Assembly: GCA_030247885.1 (NCBI GenBank)
Contig: JAPDRO010000008.1
Coordinates: forward strand, 1,116,001-1,180,000
Length of the DNA stretch: 64,000 nucleotides
Reading direction: 5' to 3'
From: Taxawa tesnikishii (nom. ined.)
Lineage: Eukaryota; Ascomycota; Dothideomycetes; Dothideales
Every line of letters begins with the position of its first letter. Within the stretch, counting starts at the first letter, position 1. The notes under the pieces were generated by a model, which was not told where the DNA came from, did no database searches, and was given only the letters and a program-made list of their open reading frames with translations. Both the position numbers and the translations under genes were made by a program. Below are positions 1 through 11,964 of the stretch, piece by piece.

Positions 1-511
1 CGCTTCCATGTACGGATGGATCAATTCGGCTAAGTTCTAGTGTCTGATCTGCGAGCCAATCCATGACACGGTCGTTGTCTTGCTTCATGGCTGTGAAAGG
101 GGAAGGCGAGGTAGACGCACATGATGGCTCAGAGCGTGGGACCTCGACACTGCTCAACCGCTCAGAATCAACGGCACAGAGCCCAGGCGCCGTCTCTTCA
201 ACCCGACGGTGAAGGTACTTGGCCGGATCAAGTCCCTGACTCAGCGCTATTCCCTCTAATATTGTGGCAGCCTCTTCCGCTGCACGAGTCTGCTTGAGCA
301 GGGCATCCCTTGTAACTTCATATATTTTTTGGGATATCTCTTCTGGGAGATCCAACTGCTGCCCCTGATGTGCCTTGAGTTGCCGTGATACCGACTTCTC
401 TTTGTACTCCTCTTCCAGGTTATTGAGCTGCTCTTCTAGTAGCTTGATATCTCCCTTCTTGTCGTAAAAGGCATCAAGGACGACTGGGATGTTGGAAGAT
501 CCATCGCTCAT
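1..511 (-). CDS. Coiled-coil family protein, paralogue A (partial, runs off left edge)
   Basis: The minus strand is open from an ATG at about 511 to the window edge (about 170 codons). It is the same family as the genes at 1277-2752 and 7528-8841: the start (AFYDKKGDIKLLEEQL) matches LFYDKVGDMKLLQSQ near residue 228 of the 7528-8841 protein. The later segments ALSQGLDPA and RVMDWLADQ match CLSKGYDIN and GIQRWLAEQ. The charged heptad-like segment suggests a coiled coil. The N-terminal half seen in the paralogues is absent: upstream the frame closes near 556, and only about 765 bp separate it from the next gene, with no recognisable coding. It is either a 5'-truncated copy or has 5' exons I cannot define. 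Function unknown. Confidence 0.55.
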   Translation of the reverse strand, partial: MSDGSSNIPVVLDAFYDKKGDIKLLEEQLNNLEEEYKEKSVSRQLKAHQGQQLDLPEEISQKIYEVTRDALLKQTRAAEEAATILEGIALSQGLDPAKYLHRRVEETAPGLCAVDSERLSSVEVPRSEPSCASTSPSPFTAMKQDNDRVMDWLADQTLELSRIDPSVHGS

Positions 512-1276
512 CAGTTCTTGGGGAGCCCCTGTAGCACCCTGGATGGCGAAAACTCATAACAACGGTCGGAATGGTTGGACGTAGTACAAGCGCAAAATTG
601 TTGGGTGATGATCGTTAGAGCTGTTATGGTCAGCAGGCACCAAAGCCCGACTGAAGTGAAGCATCCATCTCTCGTCAATACATGGTCGACATGAGCAGAA
701 GCGAACGATAGAGCAGCATGCGACGAACGTGGTTCACCACTACGGATGATTGTCACTTACTTCAGGGTCCCTCAAGCTAGCTGCAGACAGCGAGGTAAGG
801 CAGCCGTCACACGCAGACTAAGCGTAGTCGAGTGGGAATCGGGCTTAACCAAAGACGAACAATAACGTCTAATGACCTCTAACATGTAAGCAGGAATGAT
901 CGCTTTGTGTGTTGGTGGGCACTCCGCAATGCTAGTTGAGTGGTTTGCGGATATACACCCTGGCCGTTCTGTGCCACCTACTCTAGCTGGTTGCGCTACA
1001 TTGTTAGAAAAGCATTAGCAACACGGGAGGACTCCACCACAGGTGAAGATGGCACAGTTCATCATGTTTGTCCTCTAACGGTCGCTGTCATAGCTTGGGG
1101 ATCTGCCAATAAAACTCAAATATAATAACTTGCCGATTGTTGCACTTCAGTCAATGGAAACAAGACAGCGAAAGACACAGTATATCGTCTTTGAGGCAGC
1201 GGATTTTTCAGTTCGGCGCCAGGTATCTACTTCCTGAGACAGACCGTACATGGCCTCTGGAAAACACCTCCTTCCC
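512..1276. other. Intergenic, no gene seen
   Basis: Short spurious ORFs only. A possible splice donor (GTAAGT on the minus strand near 760) could belong to a 5' exon of the partial coiled-coil gene to the left, but no coding segment with family similarity was found upstream of it. Confidence 0.5.
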
Positions 1277-2752
1277 TTATATGTGACATGAGCGCGTTTG
1301 GCGGATTAATGACACAAGACGCTTTCCTAACCCATCAATTCCAGGATCACAGGGCCAGGAGGCTGGATCTGTATGACATTGAGAAGGAACCAGCTCAGGA
1401 CGACCGTCGCCACCGTCTGAAAATCCCGTGTCGGAAGAACCCACCCAAAGGCCCAGAACGGTTTGATCTGACCACCAGAAGTCCCGCGCTAGTCCAGCCA
1501 AAAAATTCTTATCTGAAGAAAACTGCACTTGGGAAGTACTCAGAAAGTTCCGATAGAGAAGTCTTTCGATGCTTGTGGATTCCAAGATATCTAACAACCA
1601 CTTGTTAACCCTGTCTCGACTTCGCCTTATGTCGTCCGAATGTCGCTCCACGCTGATAGCGCTATCACTCCCAGTGCAAGATTCCGGGGCCACATGCTGA
1701 CTGTAATCATCTTGATTGACAGAGAAGAGGCTCGCATGACTGATGGATGCAAAGTGACTGCTAACGTCTGGATCATAGCCATCTTCAAGACAAGTCTGCC
1801 GCAGGATTCGACCTCTTCGCCGTGCTGTTTCCAGTTTTTGAACGACAATCTTCCTCCGAGCATTGAATGCTTCTGGCACATTTCCAAGCCAAGAGTAGGG
1901 AGACGTGAAGGGAAAATCCATCAGCGTATCGCTGTCGCTGTCACTGTTGTTCCCGAGCTGAAGTGCGAGAGGAAAGTCTTCTTCTGAAGAGCCCTCTGTC
2001 CGCGTGCCAAGGAAGGGAAGAGTCGGAGAAGCAGATCCTGGCAAGATAGGAATGTGCTGACGGTAGTCCGGATCATCCGAGCTAGGGATACCGTTGAGCG
2101 ACCCTTGAGAGCCAGTCCATTGAGACGCTAAAGGAGTTTGCCTGACTTGCAGCCCAATCATCCGGTCATAAGACTCATGCGTTGGGTCAGACTTTGGCGT
2201 TGGAAGTATGTATTTATGAGCTGGATCAATGCTTTCAAGCTTATCCTCTAGCTCTTGAACAGCACTCCGCTCCAGGAGATATTGATCAGCCGCGGACAGG
2301 TAGTAACTGGGCGCTACTGATCGTTGACTCTGTCGGGTTGAACGTTCTGAATCGTTTTCCATGGACCAGGTGCTGTCATGAGCATTGTAGAAAAGCGCAA
2401 GCGTTGAAAGCAACGCTGTCTCCGTATCCTGGTATTTGCATTCCAAGGCCGTAGTAGAGTCCTCCAAATCTGTCAGGCGACAATCTTCCATCACAAGATC
2501 ATCACTTGTCTGGCGGACCTCCTCATATAGTGGACTCAATCTTGATGAAGTATCTATTCCACATTCGATCTCAGCCATCCTTATCGCTTCCAACAGCGCT
2601 ATCTGGGCATCGCGGGCGAGGCCTCTGAGCTTGTTACATCTCCGTCGCTGTTCACTCAAAACAAAACGAGCGTATGACACCTCCGGACGCAGATTTTGCA
2701 CCGCTCTATGTTCCTCCCTGAGCCGCTCGAGAAGCCGTGTCGGCGAGGTCAT
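1277..2752 (-). CDS. Coiled-coil family protein, paralogue B
   Basis: Single-exon gene. The start is taken at the second methionine (MTSPTRLLERLREEH, 491 aa); the ORF is open to an earlier ATG at 2806. The N-terminal 200 residues are charged and helical, with heptad-like leucines. The middle is Ser/Asp-rich and probably disordered. Near the C-terminus are LRQTCLEDGYDPD and RVNKWLLDILE, which match the 7528-8841 gene and the partial gene at 1-511. There is no signal peptide or membrane segment. It is divergent from the DUF6590 gene starting at 3385, with about 630 bp between. No known domain was recognised and the function is unknown; the repeated association with DUF6590 genes is the main clue. 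Confidence 0.7.
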   Translation of the reverse strand: MTSPTRLLERLREEHRAVQNLRPEVSYARFVLSEQRRRCNKLRGLARDAQIALLEAIRMAEIECGIDTSSRLSPLYEEVRQTSDDLVMEDCRLTDLEDSTTALECKYQDTETALLSTLALFYNAHDSTWSMENDSERSTRQSQRSVAPSYYLSAADQYLLERSAVQELEDKLESIDPAHKYILPTPKSDPTHESYDRMIGLQVRQTPLASQWTGSQGSLNGIPSSDDPDYRQHIPILPGSASPTLPFLGTRTEGSSEEDFPLALQLGNNSDSDSDTLMDFPFTSPYSWLGNVPEAFNARRKIVVQKLETARRRGRILRQTCLEDGYDPDVSSHFASISHASLFSVNQDDYSQHVAPESCTGSDSAISVERHSDDIRRSRDRVNKWLLDILESTSIERLLYRNFLSTSQVQFSSDKNFLAGLARDFWWSDQTVLGLWVGSSDTGFSDGGDGRPELVPSQCHTDPASWPCDPGIDGLGKRLVSLIRQTRSCHI

Positions 2753-3384
2753 CTTGCAGACAGATGCGAATCGCGTGAAGCGTGGTACGATCAATCTGAA
2801 AGACACCCATCAGGCTCTTTCGACCGAGTGATATACGTGCACCTGGCGCAAGAAATGTGTGAATATATGAAAGCCTGGGGAGATGTTCGTTGATGTACTC
2901 GGTCGATGGAATCGTTTACACGCTGAGGACGGGTGGAGTAGATGCCGGTGAGGGATTTACTATTGCCGCGGACGTCGGCGCACACGAAGACTGTCCTGTA
3001 AAGAGACTCTTAAGTGTTGTTTGCGGTACGTCTCTCCGGTAGTTAGGGGTTCAAGATGCGGAAGTAGAAGTAGAGCCGAGCGGGATCCCTATGATAGGTA
3101 AGCAAGCTGCACGATGCACATCATGTCTTGGACTGAACCTCCTTGGCAAGCTCGGGCCATGACACCACTACCACCTACAAGGGGTATATTCGTACCGATG
3201 GAATCGCGACATGATAGGTGCAACGCTCACCGGAATACGTTGGCATGGGCAGCAATGCAGCTTTACGGTCTGCGTTGGCACCATCATGGCTGGCCAATTC
3301 TACGATTGAAGTGGCGATATATGACAGGCCGTCCGCAACCAAAAGCGTTTGACAACAGTCCCGGAGAGACAGGCCTGTACGAGC
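2753..3384. promoter_or_regulatory. Divergent intergenic region between a coiled-coil gene and a DUF6590 gene
   Basis: About 630 bp between two divergent genes, so it must hold both promoters. No clear TATA box or repeated operator was recognised. A plus-strand ORF here (from 3114) has the composition of a chance ORF. Confidence 0.35.
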
Positions 3385-4971
3385 ATGCCGCCGCAACACT
3401 CGAAAAGAGGCAAAGGTGGTTACGTGCAACCATCAAGGAATCTAGGCGTATCAAGCCGTGCTTATGGAGATCCGTCGTCCAGCGCTCCATGCACTGATAC
3501 TGCATCAAGGTAAGTTGCAAGAGCTTGCCTTTGATTCTGTGAGCTAAAGAAATGCCTATCTAGCCAGCGCGACCCCAGATACGGTAGCACGGGTAGCATT
3601 GGTCCATTGGCTGGGTCTGAGCAGTATTTCAGCGCTTCAATGTCGATCGAAGCGCAAGACGCCGCGCGAGAAGCCCTTCGCAGCCCTGACTTCGCGCAAG
3701 CGGAGGCTGATCACCTCTCTTCATCTCCCAACTACCACCAGGCAGGCCAGGCTGAACAAGCACCTCCGGATAACCAACACATAGGCTCAGAAGACGTCCG
3801 TGAGTCACAACAGTTCAATGCACGTCCTTGTCGTGAGAAGGGCAAGCTCGATGAGAGTAAGTACTCATAATTAGCACGTCCTGGCCTTTTCCTGATGATC
3901 TAAGATTTTCACCGTGCGCCTAACTCATGGTTCCAGCGCGGCCGGGTAAGCCACAAGTGTTGTCCTGCTTGACCTTCTGCTAATGCACCGTCGAGGTCGT
4001 ACGAATCCTTCTACAAGAACCAGCAGGAAATAGCAACCGAGGCACAACCATCTTTTCCGACCCGATTTTCCCTGATGAACTAGTGTCGTCGAAAGTCCGT
4101 TTCTTTGTCATCGTCAACATATCAAGATGGTCTTCGGTTTGCTTGTAAGCGTTTATATTGTTATCGTGTCGATTGGCTTACGCAGAACAGACCGATATCT
4201 ACGTACGGAGGGCAAGGCGTCGCCAAACCAGGTCTAGACCGAGCCGATCATGCCATCATCTATTCCCATGATACTGGTCCCGTACTCTCGCCACTCGAGC
4301 AGCGCTTGGAAAATCATTGGCAGTTGATGAAGACCCCAATCCGGGTCATCATGAATCCCAATGAACCGTGGCTTGGCCACTTGCATCTTTCATCTCGTAT
4401 CAACTACGCAGAACCTCGTACCGTACAGCATAACTGGAAAGTACACCATGTGGGTGATGTTGTTGCAGAGCAGCTTGACTTGCTCTTCAATACTTGGATG
4501 TTCATAAACCAGCATCATGGCCAAACGCCGACCTTTGGACAACAGCCATATTTTGGATCGGCCGGCTTCCGCCCGTCTCATTTGCCTATGAACATAGCCA
4601 ATCGCTCTGCAGGTGATAGCTCGCGGCCCATCAATCGCCACCATGCGAACTCTGGCTCCAGTCCACAAGCTTATGCCATGGCGAGACGTGATTACGATGT
4701 TCCAGAATCCAATAATGCGACCTTACCAGATCCTGTCGCGCAGCTCTTCAATCATCGGACGCCGGCAGGAACGCACTATTGGAGAGAACGCAACCCGACG
4801 TCCAACAATGCGCAAGCAGCAACAGCACATTGGGCCGATTCCGAAACTTCTCCCTATACTGCAACAATATCGGATATGAACCGAGACGTTAATATGACCT
4901 TGAACCATGGCGTAGCCGAGGCCAGTGGAGTAGAAAAAGCACAGCCATCGACAGAATATCCAGAAACTTGA
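3385..4971 (+). CDS. DUF6590-domain protein, paralogue 1
   Basis: Five exons fit without any frame break: 3385-3509, 3564-3856, 3905-3945, 3996-4144, 4191-4971 (462 aa). The DUF6590 core spans about residues 140-307: FHRAPNSWFQRGR, a strand ending SKVRFFVIV, then PISTYGGQGVAKPG followed by DHAIIYSH, a SRINYAEP segment and a hydrophobic helix. Introns fall after LDE, after GR and inside the C-L codon before PIST, exactly as in the two paralogues. The N-terminus lacks the Tyr-rich motif that opens paralogues 2 and 3, so the first exon is the least certain part. The C-terminal third is low-complexity (Gln, Asn, Ser, Pro). DUF6590 is fungal and of unknown function. No signal peptide. Confidence 0.75.
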
Positions 4972-5462
4972 GCTATATTCTTGGCAGGAGATTTCAGATT
5001 CGGGAGCGCTTGAGATTCAACGTTGTGTTGTAGAACTGTCGCGTCCGTTGTAATTAGTGTGTTGTTGAGCGCAAATTGTTGTCATTGTACTTCGGTTATC
5101 TGAGCGCGATCCGACTTGAATGTGTTGTTCACTGCCCACAAGTGTAGCTTCGAATACCACTATACTGAAATAGACTTTTTTTACCTATTGAACATGATTA
5201 TACACTAATAATGGACAAACTTTGATTAACTTGTGCTCGAGTGTTAATGGGTTTCCTTCGCACGATACTGTAGTACTACTACAGCGTTGGGCATCGGCGC
5301 GCATCAGGCGACCATGTTGCCTTACCCAGCCGTGGCACTTCAACCCTTTTCCAACAAAAGACGATCAACCCGCCAACATCCTCGTCCAATACGTTCATCA
5401 GGGTCTCTAGCACCCCCGAGACACGATACGCGAATGATATTGACATCACTGCTCCTAGCGCG
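4972..5462. other. Intergenic between tandem DUF6590 genes
   Basis: About 490 bp, AT-richer than its surroundings, probably the 3' UTR of the first DUF6590 gene and the promoter of the second. No feature recognised. Confidence 0.4.
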
Positions 5463-6978
5463 ATGTCCCAAACGCACGCGAACCAGATGTATCAGGACAG
5501 AAGCACGGGCGAATACTATTATTACTCTACTGCAGAAAGTTGCTATATCTACGTAACGAGTGGACGTAGAGTTTATCCTCGTAACATAGCTCATCTACAA
5601 GGGCAGGGCGAATATACTAGGGCCGAAAGGTATTCCATGGTTTTGGCGGTTCTATCCGTATGTCGCTCATTTTCGCAGACACGGTGCGGCGAGTTTGCCA
5701 AGGAATGACACTGCTACGATGTCCCAAGGCATTGCCTACAGCTCACCCTTTTCCGTGAATGGCGGAACCTCCCAACAGGAGCCTATGCGAAGCAACTATC
5801 AAGGTTTGTACAGGTTCACAGCTCCCAACCAGCTCACCAATAATTCCGAAATGAACAGGGCCGCAGCAGCAGCTTTATCAATCAGATCTCTACGGGGGCT
5901 GAGTCGCCCGAATATCCTTGATCTAACGGCAACTCAGGCGCAAATGGAACCAAAAGGTGCCGGATATGCTGACATTCAAGGACAGCCCAGCCTCCAGCTA
6001 GCTTCATCTGAGTTGCAATCGCTACGGTCACAAGCTAGAGCAAACACTCCAATCATGCATCACGACATGCTTGATTCTTGTACGTGATCTGCTGAAATAA
6101 CATCAGTCAATTCAACCATGTACCTGACTTGAGGTAGCGTTCAGGGCACGGCCCGAGGAATATTATAGCGTTGGCAGGGTAAGCACGTTCTGCTTCGGCT
6201 TCCTGTCGGAGCTAAAGCGGTGGACAGGTGTTCATGGTTCTCTGGTCTGAGCCAGCCGGATCCAGCATTTCCTCTGGCGTGACTGACGTCAGACTCGGGG
6301 AGCGGATATGGTGTAAAGTTAGACGATTTGTGGTGATCCGAGCAGCCTCCACCTACTGTTCATGCCTGTAAGAATTTTCTAGTAGTCCAAACATGGTGTT
6401 CCCATGACACGACTGATCGGAAAGACAGGCCAATAACTACCTACCAGGACAGAGGGGTAGGAAAACCCAAAGTGAACAAATCGGAACACGCAATAGTGTA
6501 CACGACGAAACAACCGCCCAGACCGTTGCCGGGCGAAAGCCCTGCGCCAGATGAGGCCCCTTTGCGTTCCGCGCTCATCAGAGTGAAGCCAGATGACCGA
6601 ACGGACAAGCTTTCTCCGACATCACGAATTAATTTCGGGAAGGTTTACACGATAGAGCATAACACGAAGGTGCGGAACTTCGGGGTAGTGCATCGCGACT
6701 CCTTGAAAGCCCTTCAAAGGACCTTTCAGGAGGTTTGGTTTGGCACAAGCGAGGTCCACCCTTCCAATCCCCTACCGGAGGTTCGCACAACAGCGCCCCC
6801 GGCACAGCAGGCCGAAGCGGGTCCATCGTTCCACATGTCTCAACAGGCAGACAGCTCTCCTCAACTCCAGTATCGCGAGGTTCACGACTTTCACGACGCG
6901 CGGCAGCGTGGACCGGAACTCAAAGCTGCAGCGTCTCCAGCTCCACAAGAGGGACATGTCGAACAGCAGAGTCTGTAG
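5463..6978 (+). CDS. DUF6590-domain protein, paralogue 2
   Basis: Five exons: 5463-5629, 5679-6079, 6138-6178, 6228-6367, 6429-6978 (432 aa), all in phase. The N-terminus carries STGEYYYYSTAESCYIY followed by GRRVYP, a Tyr-rich motif like OCRE/WW-type repeats. The DUF6590 core is about residues 190-355: FRARPEEYYSVGR, VFMVLWSEPAG, CKVRRFVVIR, PITTYQDRGVGKP, SEHAIVYTT and SRINFGKVYTIEHN. Exon 3 is 41 nt, the same length as in paralogue 1. The tail is rich in Pro, Gln and Ser. It is in tandem with paralogue 1 and convergent with the coiled-coil gene at 7528-8841. Function unknown. Confidence 0.82.
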
Positions 6979-7527
6979 ACTCCCACGCATCTGCTTGGCT
7001 TCTGGCTCAGAACAACTGACTCAATTCCTTGTGCTGCAATCGCTCAGTAGTATCTAACCTAACAATTTTCCAACAATCGCAGGCGCGATACGGTAACGTC
7101 ATCGCATTGTCTGGTTGTTGCAGAGCGATCGCTATTGAGAGTATATGACGAAGGGGTGTTTGCTAGGCAAGAATCGCACCTTTCTTTCAAAGAGGGCCCG
7201 GTTGTGCAAGTCCTTGTATATGTAACGCCAAAGCCTCGTATGCCCTCACCTTCCATGCAAACAGGCACTGCTACTCTCCTGAGTCGTGAAACCACCACCA
7301 AGTTCGGATGCTGGGCTGTCAGATGATCTTTCTCTCTGGGGATCTCGAATGTCAGTCACTGCACGGTCGGCCACGCAAATAGCAAGCCACTCAGTTGTGC
7401 CGCATACAGAGCTTGAACACAATCAGCGACGACGCACAAAAGCAGCAGTGTCTATGCAAGTACCTTTGTCAGCGAATCCAGCGGCTTTAGTATCTCGGGT
7501 TCACCGTGCTTGTGACTATACGGGCAA
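6979..7527. other. Convergent intergenic region
   Basis: About 550 bp between the 3' ends of a DUF6590 gene and a coiled-coil gene. Only chance ORFs; presumably the two 3' UTRs. Confidence 0.4.
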
Positions 7528-8841
7528 TCATGGCCTGCGCGCAGTATTTCTTCTTCCACCTTTAGTCCCATATCCTTTGTCTTCGAGCGTGAACGGAGCA
7601 GCTTCCCCAGGATCGCTAATGGTATAGCTGGATTCACACACCGGCATCCCCTGCTCCCATCGCTCGATCGAGTTGCTAGGCTCGCTCAATAACATCAATG
7701 GCTCTGACTGCTCCGCTATGCTGCTGGATTCGGCTGTTGGCATTGATTGCTCAGCCAACCATCGCTGAATGCCTCCAGCGGGAACATCCACTTCATTAAG
7801 ATGGAAGTTCTCAAGAGTGGTTTCCACTGCCATGGTGGAGTAACCTGAGGACGGAGTCGACGATGGCTCAGGTTCTTCGCTTGATTGAGATTGGGGCGGA
7901 ATCCGCGCATTGATATCGTAACCTTTGCTGAGGCATATGCTGCGCAGTTTTGCAGCAGCTGTTTTAGTCTCGTTGTACTTATCAAGTATCGATTGACTTT
8001 GCTCTGGGTATCGACGAATAAACTCTTCATCAGACGTTTCGAGCGCTCCATCCTGGTCAGCCAACAGGTCGTGCTTAATTGACTTCTCGCAGTACTTTTT
8101 GTGCAGTTTCGCGCGCTGACTCTGTAACAACTTCATGTCCCCGACTTTGTCATAGAATAGCTCTAGTTCTTCAGGTAGTTCCGTAGAAGCGTTGCTTGTT
8201 GCTGATGTGTCATCTCGCACAGGAAGCTGAGGATTGCTCTGTACGCTGTTGTAGCCGTTCAGTACAGCGACTGCATCCTGACAGGCGATGACAAAATCCG
8301 TGTCTGCACGAGACAATCTATCTTGGAGTTTCCCCAGCATTACTTTCCAGCCCCTGGTTTGCTTTGCTTGTGCCTCCAGTGTCATCCGGCTGTTCTGTAC
8401 GAATTTCTCAAGTTCCAGGAAGGCCGCATGACTCGGGTCAAAGCGAGAAACCACGGAACCCAGCGACGTCATCCTGGTGTAAATTGAATCCAAAAGACCG
8501 ACCTGGTTCTGGTAACATCTTTCCCACTCGTCGTCGAGCAAGTTTCGGCGCATCTGAACTTCTTCGCGCAATTGAGAGAGTCCTTTCTCCTTCTGCTGCA
8601 ACTGTCTATAACACGCAGCGGAATCAAGGACAGACTGGTTGATGTAGGCGCCCGAAGGCAATGACCGTAAGTGGTCGTCTGCTTGGTTCAACGTCTCGAT
8701 ATTGGGCAAGGCTGCAAGCTCTTGTTCTAGATGCAGAGGAGTCTTGATAACAGAATCGTTCCTGGAAGCCCGACGCGAACGCGCTCCAGCGGTCTTTCCC
8801 GCAGCATCCCTATTGGAATGCGTGGACCGATTCTGTGGCAT
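7528..8841 (-). CDS. Coiled-coil family protein, paralogue C
   Basis: Single exon, 437 aa, starting MPQNRSTHSNRDAAGK with a basic Ser-rich leader. Residues of about 35-200 are strongly charged and helical (for example QLQQKEKGLSQLREEVQ), a likely coiled coil. Then come LFYDKVGDMKLLQSQ, a second helical stretch, LRSICLSKGYDINARI and GGIQRWLAEQSM, all shared with the genes at 1-511 and 1277-2752. The C-terminus is acidic and Ser-rich. No catalytic motif, signal peptide or membrane segment. It is head-to-head with the DUF6590 gene at 9462, about 620 bp apart, the same arrangement as the pair at 2752/3385. Function unknown. Confidence 0.75.
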   Translation of the reverse strand: MPQNRSTHSNRDAAGKTAGARSRRASRNDSVIKTPLHLEQELAALPNIETLNQADDHLRSLPSGAYINQSVLDSAACYRQLQQKEKGLSQLREEVQMRRNLLDDEWERCYQNQVGLLDSIYTRMTSLGSVVSRFDPSHAAFLELEKFVQNSRMTLEAQAKQTRGWKVMLGKLQDRLSRADTDFVIACQDAVAVLNGYNSVQSNPQLPVRDDTSATSNASTELPEELELFYDKVGDMKLLQSQRAKLHKKYCEKSIKHDLLADQDGALETSDEEFIRRYPEQSQSILDKYNETKTAAAKLRSICLSKGYDINARIPPQSQSSEEPEPSSTPSSGYSTMAVETTLENFHLNEVDVPAGGIQRWLAEQSMPTAESSSIAEQSEPLMLLSEPSNSIERWEQGMPVCESSYTISDPGEAAPFTLEDKGYGTKGGRRNTARRP

Positions 8842-9461
8842 CGAATATATATGTCACTGCTTTTGAGACATGAGCACACTTGTCGTGTCCGCAATCTCGA
8901 GGAGTTTACCTGAATAAACGGGTCATTGGTGTCCTTTCGTTAAACGAAACACGTAGCGATATTCCAAGCTAATAGGGCATGCTGAACAGAAGTACGGGAA
9001 AACGATGACCAAGGAAGCTCCTCAGACTGTGTTGCTGTGACACGTCCATACAAAAGCGTGACGCCTCAGACAGCCAAAAGGGGAACCTTGGTATCGATTG
9101 TTGGATCGAGCCCAATTCTTCGGCAAGGGGTGATCGGTAGGCGCGTGCCGGCCGCATTGAGGTGTGAGTAGGTGTGGGTAGCTTGGGAGCTTGCTTGCTC
9201 AGACCAATCAAATCGGGCTGCAGAGCTCACAACACCGCGTCTTGCTTGGCAGCGGGAAACTGCAGACTGCTGAACGTGAACCAAACGATATCGAACACGT
9301 CTCTACCTGAGCAGGCGAGATGCTGTAGGCCGTATGCCTATCAGCACGTTTGAAATCTATGTTTCTTGACTAAATTCCTCACCTGACGTTCCCGTCAGCG
9401 CATCCTATCCAGGTGTACGAGGGGCTCCAACTATAATCGTTTTGACACAGCCTTTACCATC
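8842..9461. promoter_or_regulatory. Divergent intergenic region between a coiled-coil gene and a DUF6590 gene
   Basis: About 620 bp, the shared upstream region of a head-to-head pair. Its length is close to that of the 2753-3384 region that separates the other head-to-head pair. No specific binding motif was recognised. Confidence 0.35.
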
Positions 9462-11254
9462 ATGGATATTCGCTCGACGCAAGACAAAGAGACCGGCAAA
9501 TACTATCACTACTCTCCTGAAGAGGGCTGCTACATCTTTCAAGATGGACGACAAGTCCCGTGTCAACAACAGTCAACGAAGTCTGCAGCAGGCATGCACG
9601 CAGCAAGGAGATTACATACTCAAAGAAGCAGGTAATCAATGTCTCGTCGTCGAATGTTACGGTCACACTCATCTTCCGAAGTCATCCAGCAGGTCCGCCT
9701 TTGCAGCAGAGCGTTGCCTTTCCAGCTATCTCGAAAGGTGTCGCATTTACTCCCCAACTGCTGCCCAAGACCGACGACTCATTTTCGGCTTATGTTGCTT
9801 ACACAGGTGCGAATCAGCTCCCGCCCACAGACAAGGCCGGGTCCGGAAACTAACCAATGGTGGACAGGACCCACCCAGCAACCAAGACTTACCACAGTCG
9901 GTAATGCCGGCGAAGGTTTAACGTATTTAAGAGGCTCCGCGCCCGTTTGGTTGGGACAACAGCAAGCACACATCTCGCCTGCTGTTGCTCAGATACGGGA
10001 AACCACAGGTCCTCCTGAGTATATCACCGATCCAGCACTGCTGCGGCCAGAGCTCAAAGCCCACAGACTGTTACACACAGCTGGTCAGCAATCTGAGCAG
10101 CTCGACTCTCGTAAGCCCCTTGCAACACCGTTCCGTCGTTCGAGGCTGAGTAACCAGGATTCAGAAGACAGCGGAATGCAGCGGAGTTTTTCAAGCGTTT
10201 CAGGGTAAGCCTCACTTGTTCTAGCTTATTGTGTGCTCACCTCAGCAGGTTTTCCTTGTTCTGTGGACAGAGCCCGCTGGTGACGTCGGCAGCAATACGT
10301 CTGTGGTTACAGATATCCGTTTCGGAGAGAGTTCGTATTACAAAGTCAGAAGATTTGTAGTAATCCGTGAAGGCCAAGGCTATTGCACTTGCATGTAAGG
10401 CCTCTGTCTATCTTCTCTAGGTCTATGTTGACACAATTAGACCTATACTTACGTACGCAGAGCGCGGTGTTTCGAAACCAGGTGTCGTCAAATCAGAGCA
10501 TGGTATCATCCACACTACCAGGTACGCACCAGCGCCAGGTCCTGGAGAGTCACCAAGGGCTGGAGAATCACCTATGTTGCCAGAAGCGATCAGAGTCAGA
10601 GCGGACGATCCGACCGATAAACTAAGCACAATGTCGCGTATTCACTACGGGAAGCTATACACCGTGGAACATAACCTCAAAGTACGCAACTTTGGTATAA
10701 TACATCAAGACTCCCAGGGCACCCTCACACGCAATCTCAGAGCAGTCATGGTCAATATGTTTAGCCCACCCTCAACAGCAGGATCTTCGAGTGCTCCAAC
10801 GATGATCAATGCTCAAGCCTCAGTCGCCTCTACTCGTTCACCGAACGAGCAACAGGTTCCGCTCGCGCAAAGTCCACCGAGAGCTATGGTGCTTCCAGGC
10901 CAAAATCAGCGGGGCAAGGCACCGGTATACGCCCAAACGACTCCCCAGGCCCAAGGACCTCAAATGATTACCCGCTCACCAACGCAGGGGTTTGCAATCA
11001 CCAAATCAGCTTTCCAAGAATTGCAGCAACAGCCACAATTGTTTACTTCCGCTCCCGCTAGGACCTCTTATGTCGGTCGTCCCACACATACTTCATCCAC
11101 TGCCAAACAAGTTCCTGCACAACCTCTTGCAGCTGGAGAAGCCGAGGAAAGTGAGGGAACCAATGATCCTGATGAGACGGATGAATCGGAGGAAGAAGAT
11201 GAGTCTGACGAGACCGACGCGTCCAATGAGCCGGAGCAAGCCACGGCGACTTAA
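9462..11254 (+). CDS. DUF6590-domain protein, paralogue 3
   Basis: Six exons in phase: 9462-9631, 9682-9806, 9868-10110, 10158-10204, 10249-10394, 10441-11254 (514 aa). The N-terminal motif TGKYYHYSPEEGCYIF plus DGRQVP matches paralogue 2. The DUF6590 core, about residues 180-347, shows EFFKRFR, VFLVLWTEPAGD, YKVRRFVVIR, AERGVSKPG, SEHGIIHTT and SRIHYGKLYTVEHN. The tail is Gln/Pro/Ser-rich and ends in an acidic Glu/Asp run before TAA at 11252. After that stop the same frame stays open for 43 more Ser/Lys-rich codons to TGA at 11386. Either that tail is part of the protein in some alleles or by splicing, or it is a recent relic. Introns 1 and 2 are less certain than introns 3 to 5, which match the paralogues. 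Confidence 0.8.
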
Positions 11255-11386
11255 CAAAGCTCGAGCAAGCAAGGCTCGGCAAAGAAGAGCTCAAGCAAGA
11301 AGAGCTCGACCAAGAAAGGGTCGAGCATATCGTTCTTTGGTTTCGGAGGTTTGGGTGAGAAAGGAAGCGGAAAGGAAAGGAACTGA

Positions 11387-11857
11387 AAGTAGGAAATCGA
11401 GTATGGACAGGTTTTACCAACCATGTTAGTTGACACGATCTTTTGCAAGTTTTACCAATCAAATACGGCGGATTGAGGACTGGCGCCCAAAGCCTCTTTG
11501 AACCCTTTACGATGGCGGCGAATCTGTTATCATTGGCTGATTACGTTCGCGGGCCGAATGATTATAACAGACTTGTTTTGCCTACGGATTGGTTTACCGA
11601 GGGTGGTTGTTTCCTACGAAACGACGTCGTGGTTTTTAACCCAAGAATGAACAGTTTGGTAACGATTTCGATTCTCTTTTGTACAAACAACTATCTTTGT
11701 GTACGTTGATGCTGTTTACTCTCAGCTTCAATTCGGTAGATGAAATCCTATCGTAACTCGGCACAAAAATTGGACGATGCAACGCTGTGCCCGGCCACCG
11801 AAATTATAGCAGGTTTGCAAGTGCACAATGGTTCTACGATGGCAAAAACAAGATGTT
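11387..11857. other. Intergenic, no gene seen
   Basis: Region between the end of the DUF6590 reading frame and a tRNA gene. Only chance ORFs; presumably 3' UTR and the downstream flank of the tRNA gene. Confidence 0.4.
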
Positions 11858-11964
11858 GACGAGGGTGGGACTCGAACCCACGCTCCGAAGAACTAGTAGA
11901 TACCCTGGTAGAACCAGGTAGTTCGTACCTGAAACTAGCGCCATAACCACTCGGCCACCTCGCC
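11858..11964 (-). tRNA. tRNA-Leu (CAG anticodon) with intron
   Basis: On the minus strand the acceptor arms GGCGAGG and CCTCGTC pair (one G-U). The D arm is of A-box type (TGGCCGAGTGG) and the T arm is GTGGG-TTCGAAT-CCCAC with a standard B box. The anticodon stem CTAGT/ACTAG encloses TTCAGG with anticodon CAG, followed by an intron of about 29 nt just 3' of position 37, the usual site. A variable arm of about 11 nt fits the class II structure of tRNA-Leu. Confidence 0.9.

Follow-up and report, generated by a model that had tools for sequence, protein, structure and literature searches.

A 23-24 kb fungal array of DUF6590 genes and genes for putative helical proteins, partly arranged in divergent pairs

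The window analysed here is a stretch of 64,000 nucleotides (C33:1116001-1180000) from an assembly of 29.4 Mb in 34 contigs, and its genes and short introns have a fungal look. Open reading frames, a Pfam scan and genome searches revealed in its first 11.4 kb the gene order ccA(-), ccB(-), D1(+), D2(+), ccC(-), D3(+), in which D stands for DUF6590 genes and cc for members of a putative coiled-coil family (Table 1). This is the order given by the initial annotation, and its count of three plus-strand DUF6590 genes and three minus-strand cc family members within 11.4 kb is likewise borne out. The near-equal spacers of about 630 and 620 bp that it had described in two head-to-head pairs measure, between the two start codons, 632 bp in ccB/D1, where the start of D1 is tentative, and 620 bp in ccC/D3.

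Upstream, the array reaches about 12 kb beyond the window edge. It spans about 23-24 kb (C33:1104.0-1126.7 kb) and comprises in total six DUF6590 loci, one of them frameshifted, and four cc genes, in the complete order Da+, gene X+, cc0-, Db+, Dc-, ccA-, ccB-, D1+, D2+, ccC-, D3+. The upstream part contains a third head-to-head pair, cc0(-)/Db(+), with a spacer of 563 bp. Three of the four cc genes lie head-to-head with a DUF6590 gene, and Da and Dc have no such cc partner. Gene X was considered as a third array family and rejected, being single-copy and matching no Pfam family. The left neighbour of the array (window coordinates -15030 to -13462) is presumably a Cdc37-like gene and the right neighbour is Vps8. 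The G+C content of the island is 51.7%, compared with 55.0% in the left and 53.7% in the right flank; 12-kb windows on the right side range from 52.9 to 55.5%.

Table 1. Genes and intergenic spacers of the array. Plain numbers are window positions; C33 coordinates lie upstream of the window.
Feature	Position	Strand	Remarks
ccA, 5' part	1..511	-	similarity to ccC E 1.7e-9, to cc0 7.5e-10
ccB, 491 aa	1277..2752	-	most divergent cc member; genome-wide relative cc0 only, E 0.011
Spacer ccB/D1, head-to-head, 632 bp	2753..3384		no similarity at DNA level to either of the others
D1, multi-exon DUF6590 gene	3385..4971	+	start codon tentative
D2, multi-exon DUF6590 gene	5463..6978	+	domain 6222-6371 + 6430-6717
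ccC, 437 aa	7528..8841	-	predicted helical hairpins, last third low-confidence
Spacer ccC/D3, head-to-head, 620 bp	8842..9461		start-codon distance
D3, multi-exon DUF6590 gene	9462..11254	+	domain 10246-10395 + 10442-10729; acidic C-terminal tail
Dc	C33:1114862-1115350	-	reading frame shifts inside the DUF6590 domain; ends soon after the domain
Gene X, between Da and cc0	C33:1106099-1107022	+	long open frames, single copy

The exons of D1, D2 and D3 match the Pfam family PF20233 with E values of 1.4e-22, 1.5e-31 and 5.8e-28, respectively. Throughout the genome, 14 matches to PF20233 define at least eight loci, all over the curated cut-off of 27 bits, with one of the 14 matches passing it only jointly with its neighbours. 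The array holds six of the eight loci found in the 29.4 Mb genome; the other two lie at C17:65.7-66.2 kb and C12:1384.8-1385.2 kb. PF20233 is absent from 14 control genomes. The label "lineage-specific" formerly attached to the family has to be dropped, because DUF6590 is a general Pfam family. Its Pfam entry gives no function, no PDB chain matches it at E≤10, and a search of open full text returned no paper with its name, PF20233 or five neighbouring DUF numbers.

The D1 domain lies in two exons (~3997-4144 and ~4191-4485), its divergent first half having been read by eye; reading by eye also revealed an intron in the codon after a C-x-C motif in all six array loci and in the C17 locus. The members of this intron-sharing group are 28-58% identical, whereas the C12 copy carries its domain within a single exon and is distant (14-22% identity). 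An N-terminal aromatic motif, [YH]-[WY]-S-x-x-E-x-C-Y, also read by eye, opens Da, Db, D2 and D3, and acidic stretches follow the domain in Da, Db and D3. The frame of D3, previously taken to end at 11386, stops at a TAA at 11252-11254. Right behind this stop lies an in-frame open stretch of 43 Ser/Lys-rich codons (11255-11386) that ends SISFFGFGGLGEKGSGKERN; since the frame stays open behind the TAA, the end of D3 is doubtful and may involve an intron, read-through or a recent stop.

Outside the array, the C17 locus (L012:4499-5200) shows a frame shift near a run of A that may reflect either decay or a sequencing error. Neither by eye nor by profile was a cc gene visible in the 10 kb surrounding it. 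Divergently upstream of the C12 gene lies a minus-strand coiled-coil-like gene spread over several frames (L013:2189-3922). To the eye it looks suggestive, but the core profile scores it at 1.3 bits, a value reached by 46 of 500 shuffles, and a second profile test likewise gave a chance-level result, so that profiles lend its kinship with the cc genes no support.

The assignment of the cc genes to one family holds for ccA and ccC, and also for cc0, and applies to ccB only as a distant member. In single-protein searches of the genome, ccC found ccA (E 1.7e-9) and cc0 (E 2.0e-8), with nothing further at E≤1 and no match to ccB. At E≤10, the ccA piece found ccC and cc0 plus a chance-level match at C12:950569 (E 1.4), cc0 found ccC, ccA and weakly ccB (E 0.016), with nothing further, and ccB found cc0 only (E 0.011). 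Genome-wide, the mutual similarity of cc0, ccA and ccC thus lies at E 2e-8 to 6e-10, and that of ccB at E 0.011-0.016. Because ccC misses ccB and ccB matches only cc0, and weakly, we regard ccB as a distant member. Every cc gene detected by these searches lies inside the array, although they score the best candidates only and may have missed more remote cc genes.

The cc proteins, cc0 included, are 18-29% identical to each other and match no Pfam family over cut-off. The open frame of ccA runs past the window edge to C33:1115492 and encodes 340 aa from a Met at 511; the core YDKxGD segment and the WL motif are present and the N-terminal helical part is absent. An AlphaFold2 model of ccC, based on three sequences, is long-helical, with predicted helices at residues 67-131, 137-202, 224-263 and 279-305; the pLDDT is mostly about 70-80 over helices 67-131/137-202 and below 50 for residues 310-437, with a mean of 53.8. 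A crude heptad test for coiled coils was convincing for cc0 alone, its score being reached by 6 of 200 shuffles, compared with 18 for ccA, 66 for ccC and 79 for ccB. A Foldseek search with the ccC model returned 382 matches at E≤10, none of them at E≤0.001, and the best 50 of the 382 are mostly elongated helical proteins. Among solved structures, the cc core weakly matched three, two of NUP62 (best E 0.073) and one of a designed protein. No homologue was confirmed in viral contigs searched with two DUF6590 queries and ccC.

The initial annotation had proposed that a pair, not a single gene, was duplicated. The third divergent pair, the clustering and the agreeing quartets speak for this proposal, while the unlike spacers, an orientation P of 0.07 and a chance level of 1/3 for the quartets weaken it. 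When all ten genes were given a random order and strand, three or more divergent cc/DUF6590 neighbours arose in 7% of trials; the value was 1% if the cc gene was required on the left and 10% when the observed strands were shuffled. Fisher's test on the strand preference of the two families gives P 0.048. The head-to-head pattern alone is not beyond chance, whereas the kinship and clustering of the genes are. The three spacers were compared for promoter DNA in common, an idea that was rejected because they have only short chance matches and no 8-mer present in every one. Since the spacers are without DNA similarity, any joint duplication must be old.

FastTree column bootstraps recovered the quartet {D2,D3}|{Db,D1} in 193 of 200 replicates in both runs and the quartet {ccA,ccC}|{cc0,ccB} in 197 of 200. 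The two agree under the pairing cc0-Db, ccA-D2, ccB-D1 and ccC-D3, an agreement with a chance level of 1/3 for which the pairing ccA-D2 was picked after the trees were seen. Taking D2 as the partner of ccA would imply an insertion of ccB/D1 between the two genes of an older ccA/D2 pair. Addition of Da lowers the D1-Db grouping to 110 and 104 of 200 in the two runs, and with Dc and the C17 copy in the tree D1 groups with the broken Dc (193 and 177 of 200). Dc, the closest relative of D1, has no place in the cc-D pairing, and IQ-TREE on all eight D copies gives weak inner support (30-82). Co-amplification of a cc/DUF6590 gene pair is partly supported, and the pair model is favoured over its alternatives, not proven.

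A quite plausible alternative is that two unrelated families were each tandem-duplicated in one fast-changing stretch, in which case the head-to-head arrangement would be accidental and the proteins would not cooperate. The 7% of random arrangements, the non-homologous spacers, the lack of a visible cc gene beside the C17 locus and the position of Da and Dc without a head-to-head cc gene all fit this explanation. It is countered by the single-protein searches, which found no cc gene elsewhere in the genome, by the agreement of the quartets of both families, and by the rarity of two independent arrays in the same 23 kb, which a rough post hoc estimate puts at about 0.1%. If it is correct, the locus is an ordinary fast-evolving one.

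The possible relation of DUF6590 to the PemK/MazF toxins came from reading the sequence and was written down before any test. Among 24,736 Pfam models, the second-best match of D2 is PemK_toxin (E 0.14, domain positions 97-149 on profile positions 57-108), and D2 is the only one of the six DUF6590 domains scanned with this match. D2 matches "Read-through" almost equally (E 0.15) and another member matches LEA_2 (E 0.079); therefore the E value of 0.14 alone is at chance level. DUF6590 fails membership of PF02452 with 12.8 bits against a cut-off of 23.1, and PF02452 has no match at E≤10 in the genome itself.

Six DUF6590 domains were compared by hhalign with three PemK/MazF alignments, with ParE and PIN as controls. 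The alignment of 33 PemK/MazF proteins scored 21.8 locally (probability 7.4%) and 21.8 globally (15.6%), the latter headline whole-length score being the best of the three PemK/MazF alignments. A 25-protein PemK set (same loci) scored 22.0 and 11.5, respectively, and 80 close MazF proteins 19.1 and 3.0, at whole length no better than the controls (ParE 12.0 and 2.9, PIN 8.9 and 1.9). The scores of the 33-protein alignment were reached by 1 of 130 profiles with shuffled DUF6590 columns locally and by 0 of 130 globally (1 and 0 of 150 in the other run). Shuffling blocks of eight gave 17 of 130 locally and 1 of 130 globally (16 and 0 of 150). When a six-member DUF6590 profile was used to rank 1374 bacterial ORFs of 80-260 aa, the best of the 29 PemK ORFs took ranks 1, 2, 6, 9 and 10, with a best E of 0.15. 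The PemK ranks yield P values of 6.7e-8 against unlabelled ORFs, 0.0007 against ParE and 0.0002 against PIN, which are not strict probabilities because the ORFs are mutually related. An eight-member profile places a ParE ORF at the top and does not clearly separate PemK from ParE, with a P value of 0.089 (0.19 in the other run).

In the underlying PemK alignment, itself weak, an arginine aligned to the catalytic Arg of MazF (R25/R29) is found in all eight DUF6590 copies. The catalytic threonine of E. coli MazF is T52, the equivalent of Thr48. The position aligned to the catalytic threonine is not conserved, being T, L, Q, Q, S and F in six domains; a threonine occurs one residue later in 6/8 copies. 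Catalytic roles of MazF Arg25 and Thr48, and a serine in place of the threonine in one MazF, are described in PMC7354611. An AlphaFold2 model of the single-exon C-terminal half of DUF6590, made with three sequences to look for the SH3-like barrel of PemK/MazF, reached a pLDDT of 40.6. From these profile comparisons, DUF6590 may weakly resemble PemK/MazF at the level of the fold, which we take as an unproven lead. Searches of open full text for eukaryotic MazF/PemK returned, among the matches listed, papers that are all bacterial by title; those for PemK in fungi returned papers unrelated by title and the start of the abstract, the one match for divergent gene pairs concerns Fusarium effectors, and no paper was found that links MazF-like proteins with allorecognition.

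Tentatively, and ahead of the other readings, we propose that a divergent module of a DUF6590 gene and a helical-protein gene multiplied in place, and that its PemK-like barrel is held by the helical partner. In the ancestral module, a DUF6590 gene and the gene of a helical protein would have been transcribed divergently; six DUF6590 loci and four cc genes would have arisen from it by multiplication in place, and some of these copies would later have been truncated or broken. We infer that the duplicated unit was the pair itself and that its two products cooperate, with the helical protein as the binding partner of the DUF6590 protein. As the weak profile evidence suggests, the DUF6590 domain might form a small PemK/MazF-type beta-barrel that lacks the catalytic threonine. 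Because this threonine is missing, the barrel would more likely bind nucleic acid or protein than cut RNA, with the helical partner holding or inhibiting it. Divergence of matched pairs might keep the copies specific to each other. A fold and a partner would make a family without assigned function testable. The faint and unproven likeness to the toxin fold would give a first hint at its function, and a PemK-like fold in fungi, if true, would represent a new instance of a eukaryote co-opting a bacterial conflict domain.

The eight loci found here belong to Pfam DUF6590 by its curated cut-off, but no amplification of this family with a divergent helical partner is described in open full text. 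Divergent gene pairs in fast-evolving fungal arrays are known for head-to-head layout and tandem amplification with decay, and the array resembles them in both respects. It is improbable, though conceivable, that the locus is a fast-evolving self/non-self recognition locus whose copies represent alternative specificities; its amplified and strongly diverged copies (cc 18-29% and intron-sharing D 28-58% identical) and its truncated and broken members would suit such a role, but Pfam scans detected no known allorecognition domain. Nor did these scans reveal a known effector domain in the array proteins, and inspection of their N termini found no obvious signal peptide; in these points the array differs from the fungal divergent pairs mentioned above. 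We consider it similarly doubtful that DUF6590 descends from the PemK/MazF fold in fungi and forms with its helical partner a multiplying module, similar to toxin-antitoxin or effector-inhibitor systems, with matched and diversified specificities.

The array shares with the PemK/MazF toxins and their antitoxins (PF02452) a weak whole-length profile likeness, the invariant arginine and a two-gene layout, but differs from them in its score below the cut-off, the variable catalytic-threonine position, genes that are divergent instead of operon-like, introns and long low-complexity tails. That DUF6590 is an active MazF-type ribonuclease with the helical protein as antitoxin, in a eukaryotic toxin-antitoxin array, would agree with the shared features and is very unlikely in view of the differing score, threonine position, gene orientation and tails.

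Two Rfam matches were noted to the right of D3. At the right array edge, between D3 and Vps8, Rfam identified a tRNA gene of 108 bases (11857-11964), which probably contains an intron and was missed by ARAGORN at its bacterial setting. Farther into the window, 20867-20995 matches the A. fumigatus snoRNA Afu_198 in Rfam with 52.2 bits.
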